Part shown: positions 5,252-27,858 of the stretch, piece after piece
Layout: each line of letters starts with the position of its first letter
Numbering within the stretch: position 1 is the stretch's first letter
Assembly: GCF_001715975.1 (NCBI RefSeq)
Contig: NZ_MARB01000019.1
Coordinates: forward strand, 1 to 64,000
DNA length: 64,000 bases
Direction of reading: 5' to 3'
Origin: Candidatus Thiodiazotropha endolucinida
GTDB taxonomy: Bacteria > Pseudomonadota > Gammaproteobacteria > Chromatiales > Chromatiaceae
Translations under genes and position numbers: made by a program
Notes under the pieces: generated by a model
Database searches by the model: none
Told to the model about the DNA's origin: nothing
Seen by the model: the letters and a program-made list of their open reading frames with translations, nothing else

Positions 5252-6370
5252 TTAATCCAGGATGCTGAATTCGAGCTCTTTCTTCAGTTGATTAACGGCA
5301 TTGTTTCGAACCCCCATCAGATTTTTTGCCCTTTGATCATAGGTATCATCAATTTCAACAACCTCTGGTGTGAGAAAGACCACCATTTCTGACATTTCAT
5401 GCTGAATATCATTACTCTTAAAAAGGTCGCCAAGCACAGGTAAATCACCCAGTCCTGGAACCTTACTGGTGCCCCTGCCTTGTTTTGCTTTTAACAATCC
5501 CGAAATAACGATTGTCTGTCCAGAATGAACATTGACTATAGTCTCCGTTTCATTCTTTAAAATACCCGGCACATCCAACACAATTGTAGACGTGTCGATC
5601 TCGCTGACTTCTGCTTTTATGGTTGTATATATCTGCTTTTCATTATTTACCCGCGGTGAAATATCCAGCTTTATTCCGTACTGCTTGAATTCTACGCTGG
5701 TTCCACCATTTGTACCGATCACGGGTATAGGATACTCGCCGCCGGATATAAATTTGGCAGTACCACCATTGACGCAGCTGAGAACAGGCTCTGATAACAC
5801 GACAGCATCACCGTCTGATGCCAGTAGATTGATGCGTGATGTCAAGGCTGTCGCTATACCGAAGTAAGACGCGAAGGGCTTCATATTGAGAGGCAGTGGT
5901 GTACCATCAATTGCTGAGGTTGGCGACCTGAACAGGGAATTCGTTACAAAATCGCCGACTGTTGCGAAGGTTGGTCCATCTAAATCCGTCGACCAGTCTA
6001 TGCCGAGCTTGGAGATCGCACTTTTTCTGAACTCAACCATCTTGACACTGATCCTTATCATACTATCCATTCGAACACGCTTCTCAGGATCTTGCTCTGT
6101 TACCCGAAAATTGTATTGACTATAACTTCCATCCTTATTCCAAAGACGCAAGGAGGTACTTCCTGCTTTCTCGCCAATCACCAGTAATTCATCTGTACTA
6201 AGTATTTCGAGCTTGATTATACCTGCCTGTCCAATCGCAACACGGTCAACAGATACTTTACCGAGTATCCTGACCTCACCAATAAACAGATCGACATTCT
6301 TTGCATAAACACTGGTTGCAATCATCACCATATATAAGGTGATGACTGTTTTTAAGACTCTACTAATCAC
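5252..6370 (-). CDS. cpaC: Tad pilus secretin CpaC/RcpA
   Basis: 372 residues with a Sec signal peptide ending near Y-A-K (residue 24). The N-terminal pilus-motif domain (about 25-95) is followed by the type II/III secretin domain (about 180-345), which includes L-S-E-P-V-L-S-C-V-N-G-G, the E-Y-P-I-P-V element and V-P-G-L-G-D-L-P-V-L-G-D-L-F near residue 300. It forms the outer-membrane channel through which the Flp pilus passes. It is shorter than most RcpA proteins (about 450-500), having less N-domain. The stop lies five bases before tadA. Confidence 0.88.
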   Translation of the reverse strand: MISRVLKTVITLYMVMIATSVYAKNVDLFIGEVRILGKVSVDRVAIGQAGIIKLEILSTDELLVIGEKAGSTSLRLWNKDGSYSQYNFRVTEQDPEKRVRMDSMIRISVKMVEFRKSAISKLGIDWSTDLDGPTFATVGDFVTNSLFRSPTSAIDGTPLPLNMKPFASYFGIATALTSRINLLASDGDAVVLSEPVLSCVNGGTAKFISGGEYPIPVIGTNGGTSVEFKQYGIKLDISPRVNNEKQIYTTIKAEVSEIDTSTIVLDVPGILKNETETIVNVHSGQTIVISGLLKAKQGRGTSKVPGLGDLPVLGDLFKSNDIQHEMSEMVVFLTPEVVEIDDTYDQRAKNLMGVRNNAVNQLKKELEFSILD

Positions 6371-6416
6371 TTGTTGATTGTCCTCAAAAAGGCCTTATTC
6401 CGTATAAGAATCTAGC

Positions 6417-7253
6417 TCATATACCACCAATAATGTACTCAATTCCTTTTTCTTTTCGGACAATCCGTTTCCTGATTTTAGGTTTTGGATTCGGCTTGTT
6501 TAACAAGCGCGCAACTGTCATTGGATCATCGCTAATCAATTCATCATCTTGCGGTGAACGCAACAGCGCGGTAATCTTTCCAATACTTTTAGCAAGCGTT
6601 ATTTTTTCTGCCACTTCCGGCGTCACTTCAACAGTAATGATTCGAAATGAGTCATCTGACTGCCTTCCGGTTTTATCTATTTGGGTATAGGGACCAGTCG
6701 CAATCACATGCAGATTTTGAATTATCGGAATGATCCTGTCCTTGTAGTCAAGTAACAGATCAATTTTGTCATTCGGTTGAAGAAAACCTGATATTGAATT
6801 GATTTTGTCAACAGTGAAGGCAAGCGCCCTCTTACCGGGCTTTAGTTTACCTGAGAAGGTTGGTATCAATCCGCCTTCAAGATGAGCCCACAGCAGCGGT
6901 CGCCCCTTTGTGATATCAAAACTGACTCTTTGTCCTGTTGCAGTACCGAATGTTGACTCGGTAACCGCATTTTTGTGCGCATACTTTGCTGGGATTCTGC
7001 GTACAGAAAAGTCACGCAATGTAACAATTGTTCCTCTTTGGATATTTCTGTTCGGCACTACAAGAGCGACCATCTCCTCGGTCTTTTCCAGCTGGCTTTT
7101 GTAGTAGTTGACCTTTTTTTCGATAAAATCCTTTGTCAGATAAACCCCGCCCACACCAAGCACCACTGATATTATCAACATAATTACATTCTTGTTGAAA
7201 ATACTGACTTTCTTTCGTTGACCAGTGGAATCTTTAGTTTGCATCATATCCAT
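6417..7253 (-). CDS. cpaB: Flp pilus assembly protein CpaB/RcpC
   Basis: 278 residues. A basic N-terminus and one membrane helix (about 25-43) are followed by an SAF domain (about 60-130: P-N-R-N-I-Q-R-G-T-I-V-T-L-R-D-F) and an RcpC-type C-terminal domain (about 140-250: G-K-R-A-L-A-F-T-V-D-K-I-N-S-I-S-G-F). RcpC is a periplasmic protein thought to modify or gate the secretin. The position directly before cpaC is standard. Confidence 0.88.
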   Translation of the reverse strand: MDMMQTKDSTGQRKKVSIFNKNVIMLIISVVLGVGGVYLTKDFIEKKVNYYKSQLEKTEEMVALVVPNRNIQRGTIVTLRDFSVRRIPAKYAHKNAVTESTFGTATGQRVSFDITKGRPLLWAHLEGGLIPTFSGKLKPGKRALAFTVDKINSISGFLQPNDKIDLLLDYKDRIIPIIQNLHVIATGPYTQIDKTGRQSDDSFRIITVEVTPEVAEKITLAKSIGKITALLRSPQDDELISDDPMTVARLLNKPNPKPKIRKRIVRKEKGIEYIIGGI

Positions 7254-7469: not shown

Positions 7470-8190
7470 TCATCTCTACCAGGTTGGCGATGATTATGGT
7501 CTTGCCATCATCTGCTTCAGTTACAGCAATATCACAATGCCATTTATCCCTCCTGAAGTAGAGTATCGCTGTTTTTGTCTTTTCGCTTCCTCTAGCGTAT
7601 TGCCAACCATCCGCATGCATATTGTCACGATAATAGTCTCTATTTACATGTACGGAATATTCATTGAAAAACACCAACGTATATGCAGCTCTTCCCTTGT
7701 CGATCGATTCTGTGTTTGAGAGAAGCCGGCTGCCCTGGATGCGAGGAAATTCACTTGACCACTGGTTTGGCTTTGTTGCACGAGAAATATCAGTGACTAA
7801 TATATAACCCTCAGTAGATCCCCGGCTTGATTTTCGCGCCTGCACGACAACGCTTTTATCTGTTTCCATCTTACTTAACACATGCCATTCTCCGACATGT
7901 TTTTCCAAATAGGCAGGCACGTCGTTCCGGTATTTTGATATGTCTGACCAACGCTGTTTGTAGAATACCAACACTTCCGTCACCGAAGACTCTGTAGAAA
8001 ACTGCTTCATCTGCAATGGCATTCCGTTTTGAACAACCTCACCCACGTATATCACTGATGCAACTGGCGGATCTGCAACATCATGAATGTCATAAGCAGA
8101 GCAAGTGCTGCTAAACGCTATAGAACACATTGCATATCGCCAGATATCAATGAATTGTTTTACATTAAATGCCACTTTAGTCTTCCGCAT
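7456..8190 (-). CDS. Hypothetical secreted protein in the Tad locus
   Basis: About 244 residues from ATG 8190. That start is chosen because it gives a plausible signal peptide (basic start, then a short hydrophobic core ending near S-T-C-S-A-Y) and only 14 bases of overlap with the upstream gene; the longer reading frame would overlap by over 100. The mature part is rich in aromatic and charged residues with no motif I know. Short overlaps on both sides place it in the Tad transcript. It may be a periplasmic accessory protein, which is inference from position only. Confidence 0.5.
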   Translation of the reverse strand: MRKTKVAFNVKQFIDIWRYAMCSIAFSSTCSAYDIHDVADPPVASVIYVGEVVQNGMPLQMKQFSTESSVTEVLVFYKQRWSDISKYRNDVPAYLEKHVGEWHVLSKMETDKSVVVQARKSSRGSTEGYILVTDISRATKPNQWSSEFPRIQGSRLLSNTESIDKGRAAYTLVFFNEYSVHVNRDYYRDNMHADGWQYARGSEKTKTAILYFRRDKWHCDIAVTEADDGKTIIIANLVEMNENS

Positions 8191-9016
8191 ATCGATCCAT
8201 CGGTAACACATGAGGGTTAATATAACCAAACCCCCCATTGCTATCAGAACGAAGACCTTGAATATCCGCAAAGAAGGGTACAATGGTTGTCACACCAGCC
8301 AGCGTATCACCTACTGATTCCAGGGCTCCGGCCGGGACGAATGATCGTGATCGTCTTGCAGCTTGTGCAGGGTCTCTTGCGTCCCAACTATCTGCATAGA
8401 TTGTGTTTGAACGGCTAACACATGCTGCTATGGTTTCAGATTCCTGTCCATTACAGTCAACACCTGATGTCAAAATAGTATTACCAGCAACTTCAATCGA
8501 TACCCGGCCTGTATATAAACCATTCTCCTCGATATCCCACTGACCACCTGTAATACTGGCAAGTGTATCGCCAATTTCATCGATCCCTGCTGAAAGCGTG
8601 CCCGCTATACTCTCGGGACGTTGGTTGCTGACTACTGTATCAAAACCTCTGCCAAGCACCACAAGACGATTTTCCTCATCATCTTCGTCATAGCCAAAGC
8701 CGCTCCAAAACGGGTTCTCAAACCTCTCATCGGTAAGTACCTCACGGTCCGATCGTATCTGCAGATCAGGACGAACAAAAAATCGATTATTGACTTCTGA
8801 CTCCAATTGCTCGATATCTTTGTAATGTGGCCCTGCAATCGTCTGTTCCCAAGCCAGATAGCGACTTGACTGAGCAGTCGTATGATTAATATCTGCGATC
8901 TTGCCCATCAGTGGAATACCTGTCAGCAGAGGCACCGTAACTGTTGCGATTAAGATTGTTTCAACAGTGGCATTTCCCTTCTGTTTGAATAATCGGCACT
9001 GTTTGATGGCTATCAT
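8177..9016 (-). CDS. TadE-like pseudopilin/pilus assembly protein
   Basis: About 279 residues. ATG 9016 is preferred over 9046 because AAGGA lies eight bases upstream. The N-terminus has K-Q-K-G-N-A-T-V-E-T followed by a hydrophobic helix (about 20-40), matching the TadE-type class III signal with a conserved Glu. The large periplasmic part has acidic patches and two spaced Cys pairs but no known domain. It is probably a minor pseudopilin or tip-associated protein. Confidence 0.55.
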   Translation of the reverse strand: MIAIKQCRLFKQKGNATVETILIATVTVPLLTGIPLMGKIADINHTTAQSSRYLAWEQTIAGPHYKDIEQLESEVNNRFFVRPDLQIRSDREVLTDERFENPFWSGFGYDEDDEENRLVVLGRGFDTVVSNQRPESIAGTLSAGIDEIGDTLASITGGQWDIEENGLYTGRVSIEVAGNTILTSGVDCNGQESETIAACVSRSNTIYADSWDARDPAQAARRSRSFVPAGALESVGDTLAGVTTIVPFFADIQGLRSDSNGGFGYINPHVLPMDRYAED

Positions 9017-9067
9017 TAGTGTTTCCTTTTGTTGATCAACTCGCATAAACCAAAGCTGAATTGGTAA

Positions 9068-9445
9068 TCACAAGAATGATATGATTGCACTTTCCGCTGC
9101 CTCTTCTACAGCGTCCTCCAGTGCTTGCTGAAGTTGATCGGTCACCTGGTCGACAATCTCATCTTCGAACTGATCAACATATGCCTCTCCCTGTTGTTGA
9201 GCATACTGTTCAAGCATCCGTTCATACTGTCCGATCTGTGTTTGTGCCGCGGTGCTGACACCTTGTAAAATACCTTGCTGCAGGTCGCTTGCCACCAAGT
9301 CTGTACTGTAATGCATGTTTTGCAGTTGTGTGAGCTGTGAATCCACATTAACCAGCTGGTTCTCTAGTTCTGCGCGTCTTTCCTCATCCGTAGTGCTGCT
9401 TAATTGCGTTTGCAGTGACTCTTCGAGGTCAAGTAATCGCTGCAA
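9068..9445 (-). CDS. Coiled-coil hypothetical protein
   Basis: 125 residues, starting from TTG at 9445 with a strong purine-rich ribosome site (AGAAGAGG) just upstream. It is almost entirely predicted alpha-helix, rich in Gln, Glu and Leu with heptad spacing (about 1-45 and 60-120). There is no signal peptide or membrane segment. It starts 12 bases after the TadG-like gene. I do not recognise it. It could be a cytoplasmic scaffold, or an assembly chaperone for the large pseudopilins either side. Confidence 0.5.
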   Translation of the reverse strand: MQRLLDLEESLQTQLSSTTDEERRAELENQLVNVDSQLTQLQNMHYSTDLVASDLQQGILQGVSTAAQTQIGQYERMLEQYAQQQGEAYVDQFEDEIVDQVTDQLQQALEDAVEEAAESAIISFL

Positions 9446-9457
9446 TTCCTCTTCTCT

Positions 9458-11011
9458 TTATCCTATGTAATGCTGTACGCCCGCAGCAACACCGGATGCA
9501 CCATCCGATAAGAGTAACGAATCTCTCAATGCCCATGCCATGAATCGATTTGACGAAGGTGTTTCAGTCAATCTCACTTCCCAATATGGGCTGAACAGAC
9601 TGGCAATTTCATATCTGCCCCTTCTCCTTGACGGTATGTAGTCATCAGGTGGGTGAAAAAAAAGTTCACCGCTGGAAATTGCCGCCAAGCCTTCACCGGC
9701 CATCTGGTCTTGTGTTCCGAACATTCCCTCACCTATGCCATTTCTCAGTTCTTCATTTGGCACAGAATCCGACCCCAGGCCGTCAATTTTCGATGCTGTT
9801 CGCACATGATTTTGCGGCAGTTCAACCTCGATACGTAAAGTCAGTCGGGGATCGCGGTTTTCACGACTTAAGTCCTGCAAGTCATAGTAGGCCCTGATAC
9901 CTTCATACTCTGCATCAAGTTCTTCCTTTTCTATATTAGCAAGCCTTTCTGCCCATCTGTTTTCTTGCATATAGCGGGGACAACCATCGTTAAAGAAATA
10001 CCACCCCCACCAACTGCTGCTCTGGTATTGGCTATCGTCACATTCAAAATCACCATTGACATAACGAGAGCCCCACCCCAATGGAATTTCATCATGATCC
10101 CAGCCACATCCACGATGGTCACAATCCCATACCTCTATGTGAAAGGAGAGTGTGTCCTTACCTTTCCATTCCCATTCTAAATTACTTGCTGAACTGTTAT
10201 TCTGAAATAAATAACTGCTTGATGTTGACTCCTCGGATATAAAATTTGTCCTCCCCTCTTTTTTAACCCAAACGCGTACAATACCAAGATCCAGCCTATT
10301 TGGTGCGCCAGGCAACATATCACCAGTTCGAAGATCCCTAGAACTGGTAAATTCATCCTTCGAACGATTTACGACGTTTGCCTTGCGTAAGAGTCCGTCG
10401 TTATCTTCATATCTCTCAGTAAAATTGTTCCAGTTCACTCCATTTTGTCCCATACCGATAACCGCATAAGCCGTATCGACGTTGTAGCGATCATCATTTC
10501 TCTCGACAACCTCTCTCACAATACCGGGTGTTGCAGCGAAACTTGCCAAAAATATTGCATGTTGCGACTGACTCAAAACACCATTGACAGTGTCAATAAC
10601 AGGTATGAATGCCTCAGCAATATTTACCATTACACCGTCAATCATCTCTGTTATCGATTCTGCCGCCTGGGTATAGGGTCTGATGATAGGAAACCAGGTA
10701 CCAATGTAGTCTATATTGCGGGCAACGATATAGGCGTATTGAGTCCATGAGGTGAGACTCACCATCTGTCCAATTGATACCTGATTGGCAACCATCGCCC
10801 TGTTTGTATAGGCCTGGTAATTGAGCGCGCGTGCCTGCCAGATAAGACCACTGTAAGCGGCAGCATCAGCTGCATTTACAAGACGGGATTTTTCAGATGC
10901 GGTTTGGCCTGTGTTGAATAAAACCAAACCAAGCAGAATGGTGGACATTAGAAAAGCTATGCCAAGTGGCAATGCTTGTCCTGTCTCTTTACAGCTAGAC
11001 ACACGATTCAT
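9458..11011 (-). CDS. TadG-like pilus assembly protein
   Basis: About 517 residues from ATG 11011, which has AAGGA eight bases upstream. The longer frame would begin inside a perfect inverted repeat. The N-terminus carries E-T-G-Q-A-L-P-L-G and a hydrophobic helix, then A-A-D-A-A-A-Y-S-G, the hallmark of the TadG/pilus-assembly family. A large, Trp- and Cys-rich periplasmic region follows (about 250-400) without a recognisable vWA MIDAS motif. It probably anchors or caps the Tad machinery in the periplasm. Confidence 0.65.
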   Translation of the reverse strand: MNRVSSCKETGQALPLGIAFLMSTILLGLVLFNTGQTASEKSRLVNAADAAAYSGLIWQARALNYQAYTNRAMVANQVSIGQMVSLTSWTQYAYIVARNIDYIGTWFPIIRPYTQAAESITEMIDGVMVNIAEAFIPVIDTVNGVLSQSQHAIFLASFAATPGIVREVVERNDDRYNVDTAYAVIGMGQNGVNWNNFTERYEDNDGLLRKANVVNRSKDEFTSSRDLRTGDMLPGAPNRLDLGIVRVWVKKEGRTNFISEESTSSSYLFQNNSSASNLEWEWKGKDTLSFHIEVWDCDHRGCGWDHDEIPLGWGSRYVNGDFECDDSQYQSSSWWGWYFFNDGCPRYMQENRWAERLANIEKEELDAEYEGIRAYYDLQDLSRENRDPRLTLRIEVELPQNHVRTASKIDGLGSDSVPNEELRNGIGEGMFGTQDQMAGEGLAAISSGELFFHPPDDYIPSRRRGRYEIASLFSPYWEVRLTETPSSNRFMAWALRDSLLLSDGASGVAAGVQHYIG

Positions 11012-20808: not shown

Positions 20809-21216
20809 TCATAATTCCGATAAGAATGTACAGACAACCCTACGATCTGTCCTGGGCCCATCGAACTCGCAGAAGAAGATATTCTGCCAGCGTGAGAGAC
20901 CCAGCTTGCCATCGATAATCGGGATGGTCTCTGATGGCCCAATCAAGCCCGCTTTGAGGTGACTGTCTCCATTGCCGTCCTGGGCGTCGTGCAGCCAGAC
21001 GCCCTGTGGGATCATCTTGCGCAGCAGGTTGACCACATCGGACTGCACACTCTGGTCCCAGTTCTCCTGGATCATGATCGCCGCTGTTGCACCTTGCGCG
21101 TAGACATTCACCAATCCCTGTTCAATACCGCTGTGTGCCAGCACTCGTTCAACCTGGTCTGTGATATCGACTAAAGTCTCGCGTTTGTCGGTCTGCAAAT
21201 GAATCGTCTCACCCAT
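20809..21216 (-). CDS. YjbQ family (UPF0047) protein
   Basis: 135 residues, close to the family length. The conserved elements are T-D-Q-V-E-R-V-L, G-L-V-N-V-Y-A-Q-G-A-T-A-A-I-M-I-Q-E-N (about 35-53), the His in V-W-L-H-D and the C-terminal L-G-R-W-Q-like region L-S-R-W-Q-N-I-F-F-C-E-F-D-G-P-R (about 107-122). Some members complement loss of thiamine-phosphate synthase weakly, but the native role is unknown. It stands alone, converging with the lipocalin gene. The 193 bases between them hold nothing I can name. Confidence 0.85.
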   Translation of the reverse strand: MGETIHLQTDKRETLVDITDQVERVLAHSGIEQGLVNVYAQGATAAIMIQENWDQSVQSDVVNLLRKMIPQGVWLHDAQDGNGDSHLKAGLIGPSETIPIIDGKLGLSRWQNIFFCEFDGPRTDRRVVCTFLSEL

Positions 21217-21777: not shown

Positions 21778-22113
21778 ATGCTTAAAAGATGGATCATGCC
21801 GCTGCAAAAATGGCTGTTCGGAGTAACTGATAATCAACACCACACCCGGTTGGACAGTTCAGATGAGCCGGATACTACCCGCAGACGTTTTTTCAAGCAG
21901 GCAGCCATCAGCACGGTGAGTGTCGCCGGCACCGCTGGACTGGCCAAGACTGTCGTTGATTCCATGCCTCAGCCCGACTTGCGACAGCAATATAACCAAG
22001 ACGCCGTTAAGGGTGAAAATGAACTCCTGCAACGGGAATATGTGGTTATGACCGACGAGGAAAAGGACACAATGGTGCAGTCACTCGTCGATACCTATAA
22101 CAAAGAATCCTGA
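21778..22113 (+). CDS. Small Tat-exported protein, first gene of the redox cluster
   Basis: 111 residues. A Tat signal T-T-R-R-R-F-F-K at 33-40 is followed by a hydrophobic stretch to about residue 60. There are no Cys, so it carries no heme or Fe-S centre. The C-terminal 24 residues (Y-V-V-M-T-D-E-E-K..., 88-111) closely match residues 59-82 of the next gene's product (Y-R-L-M-T-D-E-E-K...). The shared module suggests common docking to one partner. I do not recognise a named family; a small Tat subunit of the complex is the best reading. Confidence 0.7.
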   Translation: MLKRWIMPLQKWLFGVTDNQHHTRLDSSDEPDTTRRRFFKQAAISTVSVAGTAGLAKTVVDSMPQPDLRQQYNQDAVKGENELLQREYVVMTDEEKDTMVQSLVDTYNKES

Positions 22114-22166
22114 TCATCACGCGATTATTCCAGTCTATCCGATAGCCACCCGATCAGAGGACAGCC

Positions 22167-23195
22167 ATGCCCAAACAAGATGAGAGCAAAGAAAACGATA
22201 GCAAACCCACCACCCGACGTGATTTTCTGCGCAGTGCGGGCAACTACACGGTGGCATCACTATCCGGCGCGGCAATGCTGCTGTCCGATCCCAAACCGGC
22301 GAAAGCGAATGTCACATGGGCGGAACATTTCCAAAAAAACTATCGGCTGATGACAGATGAGGAAAAAAAGGAGGCTATCGATCGCCTCGAAACCCGTTAT
22401 TCAGAGGAATACGGTAAAAAAGTCATCGTCGACGATGCACCCTCAATGGAGGGTGTTTTGTTTGGATATGCGCTCAATATACAGAAATGCATCGGTTGCC
22501 GTCGGTGTGTCAAGGCCTGCGTGGCGGAGAACAACCAGTCCCGTGGCGACGAACAGCAGATCGAGTGGATTCGCGTCTTACGCATGGAAAAGGGAAATTT
22601 TACCGAAGCGGGCAGGGATCAACACGGATACCCGGATGCATACGGCGTTCAGGTCGGCGGCAACGCCTACAAACCCGCGGGAGTGGTGCTGGAAGGCCAG
22701 CACTATTATGAGCCGGAACAGGTGCCGGAAAAGGATGCCTTCTACTTTCCCATGCAATGCATGCAGTGTGAGAAACCGCCCTGTGTCAAGGTCTGCCCGG
22801 TACGTACCACCTATCGTGATCCCGACGGCATCGTGGTTATCGATTACAACTGGTGTATCGGCTGTCGCATGTGCATCGGTGCCTGTCCCTATTGGGCCCG
22901 GCGCTTCAATTGGGGCGAACCCAATCTGCCGAAGGAAGAGATGAATCCCAATACCCACTATCTTGGCAACCGCCCGCGTATGAAAGGTGTCGTCGAGAAA
23001 TGCAGCTTCTGTATCCAGCGTACCCGCAAAGGCCGCTGGACTGCTTGTGTCGAGGTATGCCCCGTCGGCGCCCGCAAGTTCGGCAACCTGTTGGATCCGA
23101 ACAGTGAAATCCGCAAAGTCCTGGCGAACAAGAAAGTGTTCCGCCTGAGGGCCGACCTCAACACCTATCCTAAGTTTTTCTATTTCATGGATTAA
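22167..23195 (+). CDS. Tat-exported 4x[4Fe-4S] ferredoxin subunit (DsrO/NrfC type)
   Basis: 342 residues. Tat signal T-T-R-R-D-F-L-R at 15-22. Sixteen Cys form four clusters: 108/111/114/118, 198/201/206/210, 230/233/236/240 and 279/282/294/298. A roughly 80-residue insertion separates the first and second groups. This layout is that of periplasmic electron-transfer subunits such as DsrO, NrfC and HybA. Residues 59-82 contain the M-T-D-E-E-K module shared with the preceding small protein. It should relay electrons between the membrane subunit downstream and a periplasmic cytochrome. Confidence 0.88.
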   Translation: MPKQDESKENDSKPTTRRDFLRSAGNYTVASLSGAAMLLSDPKPAKANVTWAEHFQKNYRLMTDEEKKEAIDRLETRYSEEYGKKVIVDDAPSMEGVLFGYALNIQKCIGCRRCVKACVAENNQSRGDEQQIEWIRVLRMEKGNFTEAGRDQHGYPDAYGVQVGGNAYKPAGVVLEGQHYYEPEQVPEKDAFYFPMQCMQCEKPPCVKVCPVRTTYRDPDGIVVIDYNWCIGCRMCIGACPYWARRFNWGEPNLPKEEMNPNTHYLGNRPRMKGVVEKCSFCIQRTRKGRWTACVEVCPVGARKFGNLLDPNSEIRKVLANKKVFRLRADLNTYPKFFYFMD

Positions 23196-23206
23196 GGGGA
23201 GATCTC

Positions 23207-24463
23207 ATGATGCGCTTTTTTCAATTCGTGGTCGATTTCCTGCGGGCAGGCTTCACCGGGGGCATCCTGTTCTGGTCCTGGATGCTCTTCCTGTCCTTTT
23301 TCATCATGCTATGGGGTTACGGGGAGTATGTTCAAATCGCCAATGGCATGATCGTCACCAACCTCAATGATCAGGTCAGCTGGGGTTTCTACCTGGCCAA
23401 TTTCGTGTTCATGGTCGGTGTGGCGGCAGCTGCGGTAACTGTGGTATTTCCCGCCTATGTCTATAAGCACAAAGAGTTGCACCGCATTGTGATACTTGGC
23501 GAAATGCTCGCCATTGCAGCGGTGGTGATGTGTCTGCTTTTCGTCGTTGCGCATATGGGGAGACCGGACCGCCTGTGGCATATCTTCCCGGTGATTGGTA
23601 TTTTCAACTGGCCCCATGCCATGCTGACATGGGATGTTATCGTGCTCAGCGGTTACCTGCTGCTCAATATCATCGGCGGTTTCTACTATCTGTATAAAAA
23701 ATATACCGGCACTGAGGTCAACAAGGCCTTCTATCTGCCGATCGTCTATATCGCCATTGTCTGGGCATTGAGTATCCATACGGTTACGGCATTCCTGATC
23801 AACACCATGCCGGCGCGTCCGATGTGGTTCCACTCGATGATGCCGATCAAGTTCATCACCACGGCGTTTGCCGCGGGCCCCTCGCTGATTATCATCGTAT
23901 TCCTTCTGGTGCGCCGTTTCACACCCATGAAGATTGCCGATGAGGCCTTCCATCTCCTTTCCCAGATTGTTGTCTGGTGTCTAGGCATTGCCCTGTTTCT
24001 GACAATGTCGGAGATCGTCACCGAACTCTACCCATCCACAGAGCACTCATTGGGTCTGCAATATCTGATGTTCGGGCACAATGGACTCAACAGCCTGGTA
24101 CCCTATTTCTGGACTGCACTCTCCCTGATGGTGGGCTCATTCGTGTTGTTGCTGATACCCAGGATCAGAAAAAACCTGACTCTCCTGCCCTTCATCTGCA
24201 TCGCTGCCTTTATCGGCATCTGGATCGAAAAAGGTATGGGATTGATGCTACCCGGTGTGATCCCGACACCCATTGGCGAGTTCGCAGAATATACACCGAG
24301 CCATATCGAACTCATGGTTGTTGGCGGTGTGTGGGCAATCGGCTTCTTCTTGCTTACCTTCATGCTTAAAGGGGCGGTCGCGGTAATGCTGGGAGAAGTC
24401 CGCTACCAAACACGGGAAATCGAGCAACCTGTATCAGGCGAGCAGACAGAAGCAACAACTTGA
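23207..24463 (+). CDS. NrfD-family integral membrane quinone subunit (DsrP/HybB-like)
   Basis: 418 residues with about ten membrane helices. Motifs G-R-P-D-R-L-W-H-I (about 118-126), I-F-N-W-P-H-A-M-L-T-W-D-V (about 131-143), S-G-Y-L-L-L-N and S-I-H-T-V-T-A-F-L (about 189-197) are typical of the DsrP/HybB branch of the NrfD superfamily, which exchanges electrons with the quinone pool. It begins 11 bases after the Fe-S gene with GGGGAGA upstream, so the two are co-translated. No b-type heme is required in this family. The direction of electron flow cannot be read from sequence. Confidence 0.88.
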   Translation: MMRFFQFVVDFLRAGFTGGILFWSWMLFLSFFIMLWGYGEYVQIANGMIVTNLNDQVSWGFYLANFVFMVGVAAAAVTVVFPAYVYKHKELHRIVILGEMLAIAAVVMCLLFVVAHMGRPDRLWHIFPVIGIFNWPHAMLTWDVIVLSGYLLLNIIGGFYYLYKKYTGTEVNKAFYLPIVYIAIVWALSIHTVTAFLINTMPARPMWFHSMMPIKFITTAFAAGPSLIIIVFLLVRRFTPMKIADEAFHLLSQIVVWCLGIALFLTMSEIVTELYPSTEHSLGLQYLMFGHNGLNSLVPYFWTALSLMVGSFVLLLIPRIRKNLTLLPFICIAAFIGIWIEKGMGLMLPGVIPTPIGEFAEYTPSHIELMVVGGVWAIGFFLLTFMLKGAVAVMLGEVRYQTREIEQPVSGEQTEATT

Positions 24464-24512
24464 CCTTGTGACTCATGGATTGTGCGGACAATATCGATTT
24501 GGAGAAAAAAAG

Positions 24513-25322
24513 ATGACGAGCTATCGAAACCATCTGTCTATTTTGGGTCTCTGCTTGCTGGCGGTTATATCGATCAAATCCGCAATCGGCACTGAGGCTC
24601 AGGAAGGCAACGAATGCTTCGAAAGCAGGGACGGCATGTCACAAGTCATTTCACACGAAACAGCACCTGGACTGATGAATGTGAAATGCTCCCCCACTAC
24701 CGGGGGCGTACTGTGGTGGGGAGACCCTTTCGAAGGCACTATCCCCATGGGTCACATGGATGTAGAAGCGGATTACTTTCATGAAGAGGCCGTGGTGAAA
24801 CCCCGTGAACCGCAAATTGACAGGAACAAAATGCTGACGATATGCAGCATGGCCTGCCACAACGGTGAATATGTTCCGATCCCGTACAACAAAGATCCCC
24901 GCCCGTTGAAGATGCATCTGGACATTATTCCCGACGCCATGAACCTCAAGCATGGCAAAGGAGGCGTCTGGTGTCTTGATTGTCACCACCTGGTCGACCG
25001 CACCAAACTGATCGACAATTTCGGTTATTCGATCAGCTTCAATCAACCACAAAAACTCTGTGGCAAGTGTCACGGTCAGGTCTATCGTGCCTGGCGCGAC
25101 GGAATCCATGGTAAGCGAATCGGCATGTGGGACAAGGGCGGTAAAAAACGCTGGTGGGTCTGTACTGAATGCCACAACCCGCATGATGTTGAACAAGCTG
25201 GGAGAAATTCCGGCTTTGCCCAATTACGGCCGGAACCGGCACCGAACCTGCCAAAAGGGATGACAAATGCGGATCACGAAAGGATGCACCATGGCCCAAT
25301 CCAAAGTGAAGAGCCTCACTAA
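24513..25322 (+). CDS. Periplasmic four-heme c-type cytochrome with one CX3CH site
   Basis: 269 residues from ATG 24513 (GGAG eight bases upstream); an earlier ATG lacks a ribosome site. A Sec signal ends near G-T-E-A. Heme motifs: C111-x3-C115-H116 (non-standard spacing), C154-x2-C157-H158, C183-x2-C186-H187, C217-x2-C220-H221. It would be the periplasmic cytochrome partner of the Fe-S and NrfD subunits. It is larger than DsrJ and has a long heme-free N-terminal part (30-108). I cannot tie it to a named enzyme. A catalytic role is possible. Confidence 0.8.
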   Translation: MTSYRNHLSILGLCLLAVISIKSAIGTEAQEGNECFESRDGMSQVISHETAPGLMNVKCSPTTGGVLWWGDPFEGTIPMGHMDVEADYFHEEAVVKPREPQIDRNKMLTICSMACHNGEYVPIPYNKDPRPLKMHLDIIPDAMNLKHGKGGVWCLDCHHLVDRTKLIDNFGYSISFNQPQKLCGKCHGQVYRAWRDGIHGKRIGMWDKGGKKRWWVCTECHNPHDVEQAGRNSGFAQLRPEPAPNLPKGMTNADHERMHHGPIQSEEPH

Positions 25323-25434
25323 AGATGACTGTATCACCAATATCCATATACAGCTCAGGGCGTGATGAGGGATGTAAAAATTTATGCTCGTTCATACACA
25401 GCAAGAGTAATGTTGATCAACGGAGAAGAGAAGA

Positions 25435-26184
25435 GTGACAACCAGTTTCCAGAATAGAGAAAATGTCCGGCGACAGGCATTCGAATCGATCTGGGAAAGC
25501 CAGATCGATGCGGTGTTTTCCGATGTCGCAGCGGTCTATGACAGAGCCAATGACTTTGCCAGTCTCGGAACCCTGAATGGTCTGCGTCGCAGATTCATCG
25601 CCACCATTGACGTTTCACCTGGCCAACGGGTACTCGATGTGTGCGCCGGAACCAATGTGGTCGGTATCGACCTGCTTAAAAAAGAGCCAAACCTTGATAT
25701 CTACGCAGTCGATCGCAGTGATGCCATGCAGAAAGTCGGCAGCGATCGCGCCGCACAACAGGGCTTCGATATTAAAGGACATATCTGCGATGTTCATCGG
25801 CTGCCATTTCCCGACAACCATTTCGACGTGGTGACTTTGCAATATGCAACACGTCACTTGCGTGTCATCGATGTTTTCTCAGAGATCAATCGGGTGCTTA
25901 AACCGGGAGGACACTTCTATCATTTCGATATGTTGAGGCCAGCCAGCAAAATAATTGAAGAGGCTTATTGCCTCTATTTGCGGGGATGTCTCAAAACGAT
26001 CTCCTGGGCCATCAGAGTCGGACCTGAAGCGAGAAACTGCTGTGACTATTTTATTGATGCCATCCGTCTTTTCTACTCCACGGATGAACTCTCTCGCCTG
26101 CTCTCTGAATTAGGTTTTTCAGACGTTATCGGCAAACCCCTGCTGGGCGGTACTGTTGCGATACACAAAGCGTGCAAGGTTTAG
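25435..26184 (+). CDS. UbiE/MenG-like SAM-dependent methyltransferase
   Basis: 249 residues, GTG start with GGAGAAGAG upstream. It aligns along its length with UbiE/MenG: V-F-S-D-V-A-A-V-Y-D (about 27-36), SAM motif I V-L-D-V-C-A-G-T, L-P-F-P-D-N-H-F-D-V-V-T (about 122-133), R-V-L-K-P-G-G-H (about 151-158) and a C-terminal T-V-A-I-H-K. Motif I lacks the usual second Gly-x-Gly (A-G-T-N versus G-G-T-G-D). Position in a quinone-oxidoreductase cluster suggests that it methylates a quinone. Whether it is the cell's only UbiE or a specialised copy cannot be told here. Confidence 0.78.
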   Translation: MTTSFQNRENVRRQAFESIWESQIDAVFSDVAAVYDRANDFASLGTLNGLRRRFIATIDVSPGQRVLDVCAGTNVVGIDLLKKEPNLDIYAVDRSDAMQKVGSDRAAQQGFDIKGHICDVHRLPFPDNHFDVVTLQYATRHLRVIDVFSEINRVLKPGGHFYHFDMLRPASKIIEEAYCLYLRGCLKTISWAIRVGPEARNCCDYFIDAIRLFYSTDELSRLLSELGFSDVIGKPLLGGTVAIHKACKV

Positions 26185-26248
26185 CGGAGGGGTCTCATCC
26201 GCAATCGGTCACTGATACATGCGCAGTTTCTTCTTGGGTAATGACATT

Positions 26249-26575
26249 ATGACAATTCATAACAGATTGATCACTTACATCGGCATCCTCGCCATCGCCC
26301 TGACGCCTTTTGCGGCACAGGCATTGGATGCGCCTGCTCTCTACCATGAACGTACTTGTATCGCATGCCACGGCGCAAACGGCAGAGAGCCGGTGATGGA
26401 TGAATATCCTAAATTAGCCGGGCAACCGGAACAGTATCTTCTGACACAGATGAAGGATATTAAAAGCGGATCGCGATCGAATGCTCACTCAATGGCCATG
26501 AAAAATGTAATGCACCTGATCAGTGATGAGGAGATGTCTGTACTGGCAGAATGGCTCGCGAAACTTCCCGAATAA
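26249..26575 (+). CDS. Small periplasmic c-type cytochrome (c553/c4-half type)
   Basis: 108 residues from ATG 26249, with a Sec signal ending near A-Q-A. One heme site C37-x2-C40-H41 in C-I-A-C-H-G-A-N-G-R; likely Met ligand in S-M-A-M-K-N-V-M-H. It resembles the single-domain cytochromes that shuttle electrons to terminal oxidases or reductases. It is paralogous to the cytochrome at 27526-27858, with shared elements Y-P-K-[LI]-A-G-Q and M-K-[DN]-[IG]-[KS]. It starts 64 bases after the methyltransferase. Confidence 0.82.
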   Translation: MTIHNRLITYIGILAIALTPFAAQALDAPALYHERTCIACHGANGREPVMDEYPKLAGQPEQYLLTQMKDIKSGSRSNAHSMAMKNVMHLISDEEMSVLAEWLAKLPE

Positions 26576-26613
26576 ACTTGCCTGCCGAATTCAAAGGGGG
26601 CAGATCGATGGGG

Positions 26614-27072
26614 TCAGCAACCCCAGGCCGCATCAACCAGAGAGGCGATCTGATTGTAATAGGCATCGCGATCCATACCAAGCACGGTGGCACCGAATAT
26701 TTCTGCATCGTTTGCAGTGGCAAGATCGCCATAGTTAACCAGTACCAATTGATAGAGAATGAGCGCGGGTATATCGTCGTGTCGATTTTTGTAATAACTG
26801 TGCAACAAAATGGTGTAGCCATCTTCAGGATTATCAGAAACAGGCTCTGTTTTTCCGAACATGCCGGGTTCGATACCTTCGGATACAAACCTGATATTCA
26901 CGGGATAGCGAACCGATTTTCTATCTTCGAGCATGCTGAGCACCGTCCGATAATCGATCTCGTCACCGTAACGGGTTCGTATCTCTTTCGCCTTTTCAAG
27001 GGCATGCTGCGAAACCGCACTGTGTATAACCTTTCCCGCTCTTTTTTTAACCTTGGGTTTTTGTTGCGCCAT
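26614..27072 (-). CDS. Hypothetical cytoplasmic protein
   Basis: 152 residues. A very basic N-terminus (K-P-K-V-K-K-R-A-G-K) is followed by a helical part and a beta-rich C-terminus ending D-A-A-W-G-C. There is no signal peptide, membrane helix or cofactor motif. It is divergent from the next unknown gene (38 bases between starts) and convergent with the upstream cytochrome gene, the only minus-strand gene in the cluster. I do not recognise it. Confidence 0.55.
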   Translation of the reverse strand: MAQQKPKVKKRAGKVIHSAVSQHALEKAKEIRTRYGDEIDYRTVLSMLEDRKSVRYPVNIRFVSEGIEPGMFGKTEPVSDNPEDGYTILLHSYYKNRHDDIPALILYQLVLVNYGDLATANDAEIFGATVLGMDRDAYYNQIASLVDAAWGC

Positions 27073-27110
27073 GACAATAATATATTTGCTGTGATAACCA
27101 GGGATAGCCT

Positions 27111-27482
27111 ATGTCCGAATACTCACTGAAGTTTACCGAAGATCCTATAGAGGAATCCAGACAACGCACCATTGATGAGATCCATCAATTCATCAGGTCG
27201 ATGGATGGACGACCGCTCGCAGTGGTGACCCTGGACAATGAGCAGAGCGATCTTTGGGACTCGGAGGGAACGATCGACTACCAGGATATCTATGGACGAC
27301 AAATCATCAGTCAAATTTCGGACGGCTCCACTGAAACCCTGCTGATCCGTAATAACGAAGGGTTTCCACTGGCGTTGGCGGCATTGAGCAGTGTTGACGG
27401 CTGGCAGGGGATCGGCATCGAGAAGCGTTTACGCTTCGAAGTGGCAAGGATGTTTCAGAATGATGAAACTGAATTCGAATGA
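27111..27482 (+). CDS. Hypothetical protein
   Basis: 123 residues, acidic, ATG start with AGGGA upstream. No signal peptide, Cys or membrane segment. The middle part (D-L-W-D-S-E-G-T-I-D-Y-Q-D-I-Y) and the C-terminus (R-L-R-F-E-V-A-R-M-F) suggest a compact alpha/beta domain I cannot name. It lies 43 bases before a cytochrome gene in the same direction and is probably co-transcribed. Confidence 0.55.
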   Translation: MSEYSLKFTEDPIEESRQRTIDEIHQFIRSMDGRPLAVVTLDNEQSDLWDSEGTIDYQDIYGRQIISQISDGSTETLLIRNNEGFPLALAALSSVDGWQGIGIEKRLRFEVARMFQNDETEFE

Positions 27483-27525
27483 ACGAATACCTTCATACAA
27501 TATACAAGGCCGGGAGGTCATAAAG

Positions 27526-27858
27526 ATGAAAAAATCGAGTTATATTGGGTTATATCTTTGCGGTCTCATTGCAACATCTCTGATATCCAGCGCATATGCC
27601 GAAACCGATAACATAGACAGTGCCAACCTCTACCTCGCCAAGGCATGTGCGGGATGCCACGGTGTTGATGGCCGCTCGCCTGTGGACCCATACTATCCGA
27701 AGATCGCTGGACAGAATGAAGGTTACCTCTACAATCAATTGCGTGACATGAAGAACGGCAGCCGCAACAACAGCCAATCGAATATTATGAAAGGCATCAT
27801 GACTGCCGTCAGCGAAAAGGAGATGCGTGCAATCGCAGCATGGCTTGCGAAACAGTAG
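27526..27858 (+). CDS. Small periplasmic c-type cytochrome, paralogue of the one at 26249
   Basis: 110 residues. ATG 27526 has GGGAGG upstream and begins a clean signal peptide ending S-A-Y-A; the longer open frame upstream overlaps the preceding gene and is not used. Heme site C41-x2-C44-H45 in C-A-G-C-H-G-V-D-G-R, followed by Y-P-K-I-A-G-Q and a Met in S-N-I-M-K-G-I-M. It is likely a soluble electron carrier for the cluster. It converges with nudB. Confidence 0.82.
   Translation: MKKSSYIGLYLCGLIATSLISSAYAETDNIDSANLYLAKACAGCHGVDGRSPVDPYYPKIAGQNEGYLYNQLRDMKNGSRNNSQSNIMKGIMTAVSEKEMRAIAAWLAKQ

Follow-up and report, generated by a model that had tools for sequence, protein, structure and literature searches.

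The 64,000-nucleotide stretch analysed here (the window) is positions 1 to 64,000 of contig NZ_MARB01000019.1, called C19 below, from the 4.49 Mb genome of the clam symbiont Candidatus Thiodiazotropha endolucinida (GCF_001715975.1). Its positions 21778-27858 hold a cluster of nine genes that represents a conserved, recently described quinone/cytochrome system with a gammaproteobacterial elaboration. The core is formed by a small protein with a twin-arginine translocation (Tat) signal, a DsrO-like iron-sulfur (Fe-S) protein, a DsrP-like membrane subunit of the NrfD family and a tetrahaem cytochrome c; behind it lie a second UbiE-like methyltransferase, two monohaem cytochromes and two conserved proteins without a family. 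We give about even credence to the core being a periplasm-facing NrfD-family quinol:cytochrome c oxidoreductase that feeds the two c4-like cytochromes and works beside the bc1 complex.

In the mechanism that we propose, ubiquinol would bind in a P-side pocket of the NrfD subunit, and its electrons would travel along the four [4Fe-4S] clusters of the Fe-S protein and reach the tetrahaem cytochrome; the two c4-like cytochromes of the cluster would take them from there to oxidases or other periplasmic reductases. The presumed complex would operate beside bc1 and independently of DsrMKJOP, with the small Tat protein probably a structural subunit and the methyltransferase an accessory that may modify the quinone in use.

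Gene content of the cluster

The genes were read from open frames and from Pfam and NCBIfam profile searches of the translations, as follows (positions of the window):

21778..22113, plus strand: small Tat-signal protein, 111 amino acids, RRRFF motif (open frame; tblastn in other loci)
22167..23195, plus strand: Tat-exported DsrO-like Fe-S protein with four [4Fe-4S] clusters, 342 amino acids (PF13247, 76 bits; tree)
23207..24463, plus strand: NrfD/DsrP-type integral membrane quinone subunit, 418 amino acids (NrfD PF03916, 116 bits; tree)
23552..23554, plus strand: codon of His116 of the NrfD subunit (alignment with the quinone-protonation Asp of DsrP)
24513..25322, plus strand: tetrahaem cytochrome c (weak match to PF14522, Cytochrome_C7, 25.5 bits, cut-off 24.8)
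24843..24860, plus strand: CX3CH first haem motif (CSMACH) of the tetrahaem cytochrome (alignment)
25435..26184, plus strand: second UbiE/MenG-like S-adenosylmethionine methyltransferase, 249 amino acids (Ubie_methyltran PF01209, 113 bits)
26219..26575, plus strand: first monohaem class I cytochrome c (Cytochrom_C PF00034, 39.8 bits)
26614..27072, minus strand: conserved protein of 152 amino acids, no Pfam or NCBIfam family, member of the gammaproteobacterial cluster
27111..27482, plus strand: conserved protein of 123 amino acids, no Pfam or NCBIfam family, member of the gammaproteobacterial cluster
27526..27858, plus strand: second monohaem class I cytochrome c (PF00034, 46.3 bits; longer frame from 27391)

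The tetrahaem frame opens with GTG at 24468, its true start probably being the ATG at 24513, to judge from the in-frame stop that lies no more than 20 codons upstream of the matching ATG in all four orthologues checked. The start of the second monohaem cytochrome, moved by eye from 27391, is probably the ATG at 27526. The two monohaem cytochromes are paralogous (44% identical to each other). The small Tat protein has no Pfam family, and a motif in its C-terminal part resembles the N-terminal part of the Fe-S protein (34% over 88 amino acids, E 7e-8).

A sequence-only reading of this DNA had seen in the cluster a quinone/cytochrome redox module, encoded by a plus-strand run of genes and lacking a molybdopterin or sirohaem enzyme. 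That assignment is supported, and no such enzyme is encoded in the cluster. All the named genes are present where they had been placed, but the run is not purely one-stranded, since two genes between the cytochromes, the one at 26614-27072 on the minus strand, had been overlooked. The accompanying statement that no named system has this set fails for the core, which by its description matches the published DsrOhPh-tetrahaem or pACIII locus (PMC13047784, PMC11976967).

A recently described architecture

The arrangement TMH1-DsrOhPh-tetrahaem has been described from cable bacteria, Desulfobulbales, and Gamma- and Betaproteobacteria; the DsrP homologue was placed beside the reductive DsrP but apart from it, and the locus is distant from dsrMKJ (PMC13047784). 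Five of 16 genomes in that account are without sulfur metabolism, and electron transfer from quinol to the periplasm is suggested there, with the function given as unknown (PMC13047784). The pACIII locus is presented as a candidate alternative complex III whose cytochrome is classed as transfer-only, and its detection in a proteome is cited (PMC11976967). Distal dsrOP homologues had been noted earlier, and horizontal acquisition was proposed for them (PMC10926707).

Our core matches this kind of locus by description, not by sequence: it has the small one-helix protein, the DsrO-like Fe-S protein, the DsrP-like membrane protein and the tetrahaem cytochrome; its DsrP-like subunit is near the reductive-type DsrP yet forms its own clade; and it lies on C19, separate from the dsr-type locus of the genome on contig C13. 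TMH1 is called unique to cable bacteria in PMC13047784, whereas many of the loci compared here have a small Tat protein, a possible counterpart, at the same place. The main text of PMC13047784 does not contain the words methyltransferase, ubiE, CX3CH or cytochrome bc, nor that of PMC11976967 the words methyltransferase or ubiE, and in the openly accessible literature, articles proper, no publication was found that links a methyltransferase to the module. The core, then, had already been described, uncharacterised, while the methyltransferase and the gammaproteobacterial elaboration are new.

Distribution and conservation

A scan with the Fe-S protein gave 52 loci, several of them cut by contig ends and mostly in records titled Gamma-, Beta- or "Deltaproteobacteria", with one planctomycete record. 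Locus counts refer to these 52 together with four from a draw of genomes of the class, less L107, which resembles the group-2 modules treated below and has another arrangement (55 loci). The tetrahaem gene is readable in 47 of the 55 and invariably stands behind the Fe-S and NrfD genes; because this order is the same in all 47 other loci with a readable tetrahaem gene, the cluster is more than a chance assembly. The retention of the core order over phyla, together with the pair of paralogous monohaem cytochromes encoded in the cluster, argues for the quinol oxidoreductase. Between distant bacteria the Fe-S subunit keeps about 60-90% identity, whether or not they have the Dsr pathway.

Within the class the module is rare, the Fe-S protein being present at an expectation value (E) of 1e-90 in six of 370 drawn genomes, this one included. 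In the named collection the genome's close relatives belong to Candidatus Thiodiazotropha and to further symbionts of clams such as Ctena and Stewartia. Of 22 genomes of the genus, this one among them, 17 have the tetrahaem gene, as does one of three others of the family; the remaining 15 of the 40 genomes searched belong to other families and gave no such gene, weak multihaem matches aside.

With at least 600 bases of sequence ahead of the Fe-S gene, 54 loci could show the small Tat gene there; tblastn recognised it in 37 of them and laxer searches in seven more. Near the module in nine loci (L077, L078, L079, L080, L085, L106, L187, L188 and L190), all without the small Tat gene, there is instead an alternative small protein of about 113 amino acids with a YFGPPLA motif; the two never occur together among the counted loci, and the L079 copy has no Pfam family. 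The two family-less genes and both cytochromes recur beside the module, in differing order and orientation, at 5492-7057 of the Acidiferrobacteraceae locus L074, so this gene set is wider than the genus. In L102 the NrfD subunit and the tetrahaem cytochrome form one open frame of 724 amino acids (7654-9828), possibly a natural fusion or an effect of assembly.

Relationship to DsrMKJOP

The nearest named family models to the module subunits are DsrP and DsrO. The NrfD subunit just passes the NCBIfam DsrP model (357 bits, cut-off 350), to which the genome's own DsrP scores 61 bits, and the Fe-S protein just misses the DsrO model (187 bits, cut-off 200). The passing of the DsrP cut-off speaks for a spare DsrOP copy that joins DsrMKJ in sulfur oxidation, a reading already disfavoured and in our judgement very improbable, since J, O and P are already encoded in a dsr-type locus elsewhere in the genome and both module subunits fall into separate clades.

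In the NrfD tree (80 rows) the module family (24 rows, 100/100), the sulfate-reducer-type DsrP (30 rows, 97/98) and group 2 (20 rows, 93/86) are each set off from all other rows by a single branch; because the branches of the genome's own DsrP and of the outgroup rows are very long, the tree is read only for the separation of these three groups. The label "sulfate-reducer-type" follows the DsrP model, of which these are the 30 best matches (490-510 bits); of the two neighbourhoods viewed among the 30, L191 has confirmed DsrK and DsrJ genes, and in L192 only O- and P-like genes were picked. In the Fe-S tree (85 rows) the module family is again a clade (23 rows, 100/100); the DsrO of the genome's dsr-type locus groups with the sulfate-reducer-type DsrO (95/90), apart from that family. 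Both subunits thus lie outside the DsrOP of reducers and oxidisers, in keeping with the sequence-only reading.

The genome's own dsr-type locus on C13 has matches to DsrC, M, K, J, O and P, with C, K and O passing their models and M, J and P scoring below theirs. Profile scans found no DsrM, DsrK or trihaem DsrJ in the module cluster, these being on C13; where DsrMKJOP has the trihaem DsrJ, the module has its tetrahaem cytochrome. Nine of the 39 genomes behind the loci have a match over the dsrA cut-off, each behind a locus with a proteobacterial title that is not Deltaproteobacteria; the 19 behind Deltaproteobacteria-titled loci (one of which is the group-2-like L107) have none; some of the genomes without a dsrA above the cut-off show fragments at contig ends. 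This dsrA pattern, taken with the separate clades of both subunits and the C13 locus, indicates that the module is not DsrMKJOP.

Some delta-type genomes give dsrA matches of 60-78 bits. Nine such regions were fetched, five inspected and four proteins scanned; the dsrA-like protein adjoins a threonine synthase-like gene in L139, L141, L142 and L143, and in L141-L143 is also near ThiS/MoaD-like and cysteine synthase-like genes (all named by eye). It looks assimilatory, and the lead toward a sulfite reductase was dropped, the best model for all four proteins being sulfite reductase subunit C, far below cut-off.

Quinone-linked relatives and the bc1 complex

Group 2 was sampled as 20 loci (L148-L167) picked by the analyst from DsrP-model matches of 404-435 bits. 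It is a single clade in the NrfD tree, not cleanly so in the Fe-S tree; its tetrahaem cytochrome, shorter than that of the module (about 170-215 amino acids), was recognised before the Fe-S and NrfD genes at 17 loci. Some of the 20 have octahaem cytochromes nearby, and L157 has a neighbouring QrcB-like protein that scores below cut-off. This short-tetrahaem, Fe-S and NrfD module passes the NCBI DsrP cut-off with no dsrMKJ seen beside it, and its NrfD protein may be annotated as DsrP.

Geobacter CbcSTU (Cbc4) has been described as a menaquinol:ferricytochrome c oxidoreductase (PMC11434368), and like our module it combines a cytochrome, an Fe-S protein and a membrane protein, with no catalytic subunit. 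Its gene order (cytochrome, Fe-S, membrane subunit) differs from that of the module (Tat, Fe-S, NrfD, cytochrome) and is shared by the group-2 loci, which form a group separate from the module; they are likened to CbcSTU by architecture only. Qrc and alternative complex III resemble the module in the joining of an NrfD protein, a protein with four [4Fe-4S] clusters and a multihaem cytochrome to link quinones with periplasmic cytochromes. Unlike QrcABCD, the cluster has no QrcB-like molybdopterin-type subunit, and its NrfD protein reaches 44 bits with the QrcD model (cut-off 570). Alternative complex III is the set ActABCDEF; the cluster has no large ActB-like subunit, and ActC is only a distant match.

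Cytochrome b of bc1 (PF00032) is present in all 25 of genomes G000-G024, with or without the module, so in this lineage the module is not simply a stand-in for complex III, and replacement of bc1 was rejected there. Across 63 genomes searched, PF00032 gave no match in 16 (eight of them behind Deltaproteobacteria-titled loci, one being the group-2-like L107) and only weak matches in four more; in genomes without a clear cytochrome b match the module could conceivably replace bc1.

A current in the opposite sense, with periplasmic cytochromes reducing quinone as in Qrc, perhaps driven by the protonmotive force, would let sulfur-oxidation electrons reach the quinone pool and nicotinamide adenine dinucleotide (NAD). 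There is precedent in Qrc itself, a cytochrome c3:menaquinone reductase (PMC13059093), and many carriers are probably sulfur oxidisers, as the nine dsrA-positive genomes indicate. An inlet whose quinol went on to complex III would also fit the six delta-type loci in which genes for a Rieske protein and cytochrome b come just downstream of the module (of 15 loci with a CX2CH first haem motif and at least 2 kilobases after the cytochrome start; the pair in L102 was confirmed by Pfam), and the two loci with Qrc-like genes downstream (QrcA-like in L082, QrcB-like in L089, both below cut-off). Yet QrcD and HybB carry Asp at the position where the module family has His116, and the potentials of c4-like cytochromes should be too high for ubiquinone reduction unless the protonmotive force drives it; we consider such an electron inlet doubtful.

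Residues at the quinone site

Every one of the 24 members of the module family has His116, where the 30 sulfate-reducer-type DsrP and the 20 group-2 proteins without exception have Asp; its equivalence to the quinone-protonation Asp of DsrP is taken from the motif before GRP. ActC, DmsC and NrfD are quinol oxidisers. His at this quinone position has been listed for these three and for SoeC (PMC8076601). Lys342 is shared by all 24 module-family, 30 sulfate-reducer-type and 20 group-2 proteins, and its motif suggests that it corresponds to Lys329 of DsrP1, for which a proton-gate role has been proposed (PMC8076601).

In favour of a quinol:cytochrome c oxidoreductase we count, besides gene order and the paralogous cytochromes, the 100/100 clades of the two subunits, Lys342, His116, the Cbc-like order of the related group-2 modules, the transfer-only class given to the pACIII cytochrome, the presence of bc1 in G000-G024 and the menaquinone markers not found in this genome. 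Several points weigh against it. Asp also occurs in some quinol-oxidising NrfD proteins and His in SoeC, so His116 is weak evidence of direction. A Ser near the quinone pocket is essential in QrcD by mutation (PMC13059093), and at that position Ser is kept in 18 of 24 module-family proteins and Ala stands in six, including the one from this genome. No delta-type locus was seen to have the two soluble cytochromes; with bc1 already present, another quinol:cytochrome c route looks redundant at first sight; and the parallel with CbcSTU is drawn from architecture, not from Geobacter sequences.

The tetrahaem cytochrome

The tetrahaem cytochrome of this genome has three CX2CH motifs and one CX3CH. 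Over 28 aligned sequences the four CXnCH motifs, five further His (150, 162, 214, 239 and 270) and two non-haem Cys (50 and 74) are invariant; both Cys lie in an N-terminal domain that is conserved across phyla. The first haem motif is CX3CH in 28 of the 47 readable loci, many of them close relatives, and CX2CH in the other 19. The CX3CH loci are all titled or placed as Gamma- or Betaproteobacteria except L097 (titled Proteobacteria); the CX2CH loci comprise 17 titled Deltaproteobacteria, L101 (titled Proteobacteria) and L186, from this genome's own class. The predicted structure is of low confidence (predicted local distance difference test score 43).

The conserved N-terminal domain, the two invariant Cys and the one variable haem motif would also suit a periplasmic terminal reductase or oxidase of the MccA kind, fed by the module, and an architectural resemblance to MccACD has been noted (PMC13047784). 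That the cytochrome is itself such an enzyme seems to us quite improbable, since the five invariant His are enough to give each of the four haems bis-His ligation, and PMC13047784 predicts all four to be His-His. The cable-bacteria homologue is classed as transfer-only (PMC11976967), and the tree of PMC13047784 does not group the NrfD protein with MccD.

The UbiE-like methyltransferase

The clustered methyltransferase had been read as a possible tailor of a quinone for the complex. It is not the sole ubiE: the canonical gene is on another contig (C2) and scores 313.6 bits with PF01209, against 112.6 for the clustered protein, which is 33% identical to it. The clustered protein reaches 134.6 bits with TIGR01934 (cut-off 158.35) and attains none of the listed UbiE/MenG equivalog cut-offs (90-125 bits, cut-offs 216-420), while the genome's own canonical UbiE, as a control, passes its equivalog (414.6 bits over 378). 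The PF01209 match nonetheless spans nearly the full length, and Asp68, Asp93 and Asp119 align with the own UbiE; only pairwise identities and this pairing are used from the alignment. RquA was rejected as an identity, its model NF038261 being absent from the 25 families found at E 0.001; that model does weakly match the own UbiE (42.6 bits). No MqnA/D and no MenD over the cut-off were found in the genome (three MenD family matches, the best of 80.9 bits, cut-off 244), and as neither menaquinone marker tried was found, a MenG role is unlikely here.

At E 1e-30 the methyltransferase was found in 15 of 42 genomes searched; in 13 of them its gene comes immediately after the tetrahaem gene, and these include a copy 59% identical in L078 (genome G049). 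Copies 54-57% identical stand in the same place in L187 and L190, from different gammaproteobacterial families. The methyltransferase is thus linked to the module in several families of that class. No copy was found in the seven searched genomes that lack the module, as judged by the tetrahaem gene alone (Fisher p 0.038 for the association, relatedness ignored). Nor was one found in 20 of the 35 searched module-bearing genomes, some of them incomplete assemblies, so the methyltransferase appears to be an accessory without which the module can do. The link between the two looks old and real, if dispensable.

The gene could just as well be a linked passenger that acts on some other small molecule, unrelated to quinones and to the module, and this is compatible with any of the readings given above. 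Its absence from those 20 genomes, its position away from the module in G075 and G051 and its scores below every listed equivalog cut-off speak for a passenger, and its place directly behind the tetrahaem gene, down to the L078, L187 and L190 copies, and the seven genomes without either gene speak against one. The methyltransferase may modify the quinone used by the module. It is improbable, if conceivable, that the clustered UbiE paralogue supplies the complex with a private quinone of shifted potential, methylated or altered in some other way, in sulfur oxidisers that would otherwise have ubiquinone alone, together with a tetrahaem cytochrome that binds one of its haems via CX3CH.

Neighbouring sequence

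Just upstream of the cluster, at 20809-21216 on the minus strand, lies a gene for a YjbQ/UPF0047 family protein. A tandem-repeat scan found nothing, and a search of viral contigs found no relative.

Implications

In addition to the usual complex of its sulfur pathway, the sulfur-oxidising symbiont has another membrane module for electron transfer. Since the Fe-S subunit remains so similar in distant bacteria, with or without Dsr, the module presumably does something general at the junction of quinone and cytochrome c. A membrane subunit that passes the NCBI DsrP model may mislead surveys of the sulfur cycle. If it is true that the UbiE paralogue modifies a quinone, there would be an unrecognised quinone, serving a single complex, in bacteria thought to have ubiquinone only.

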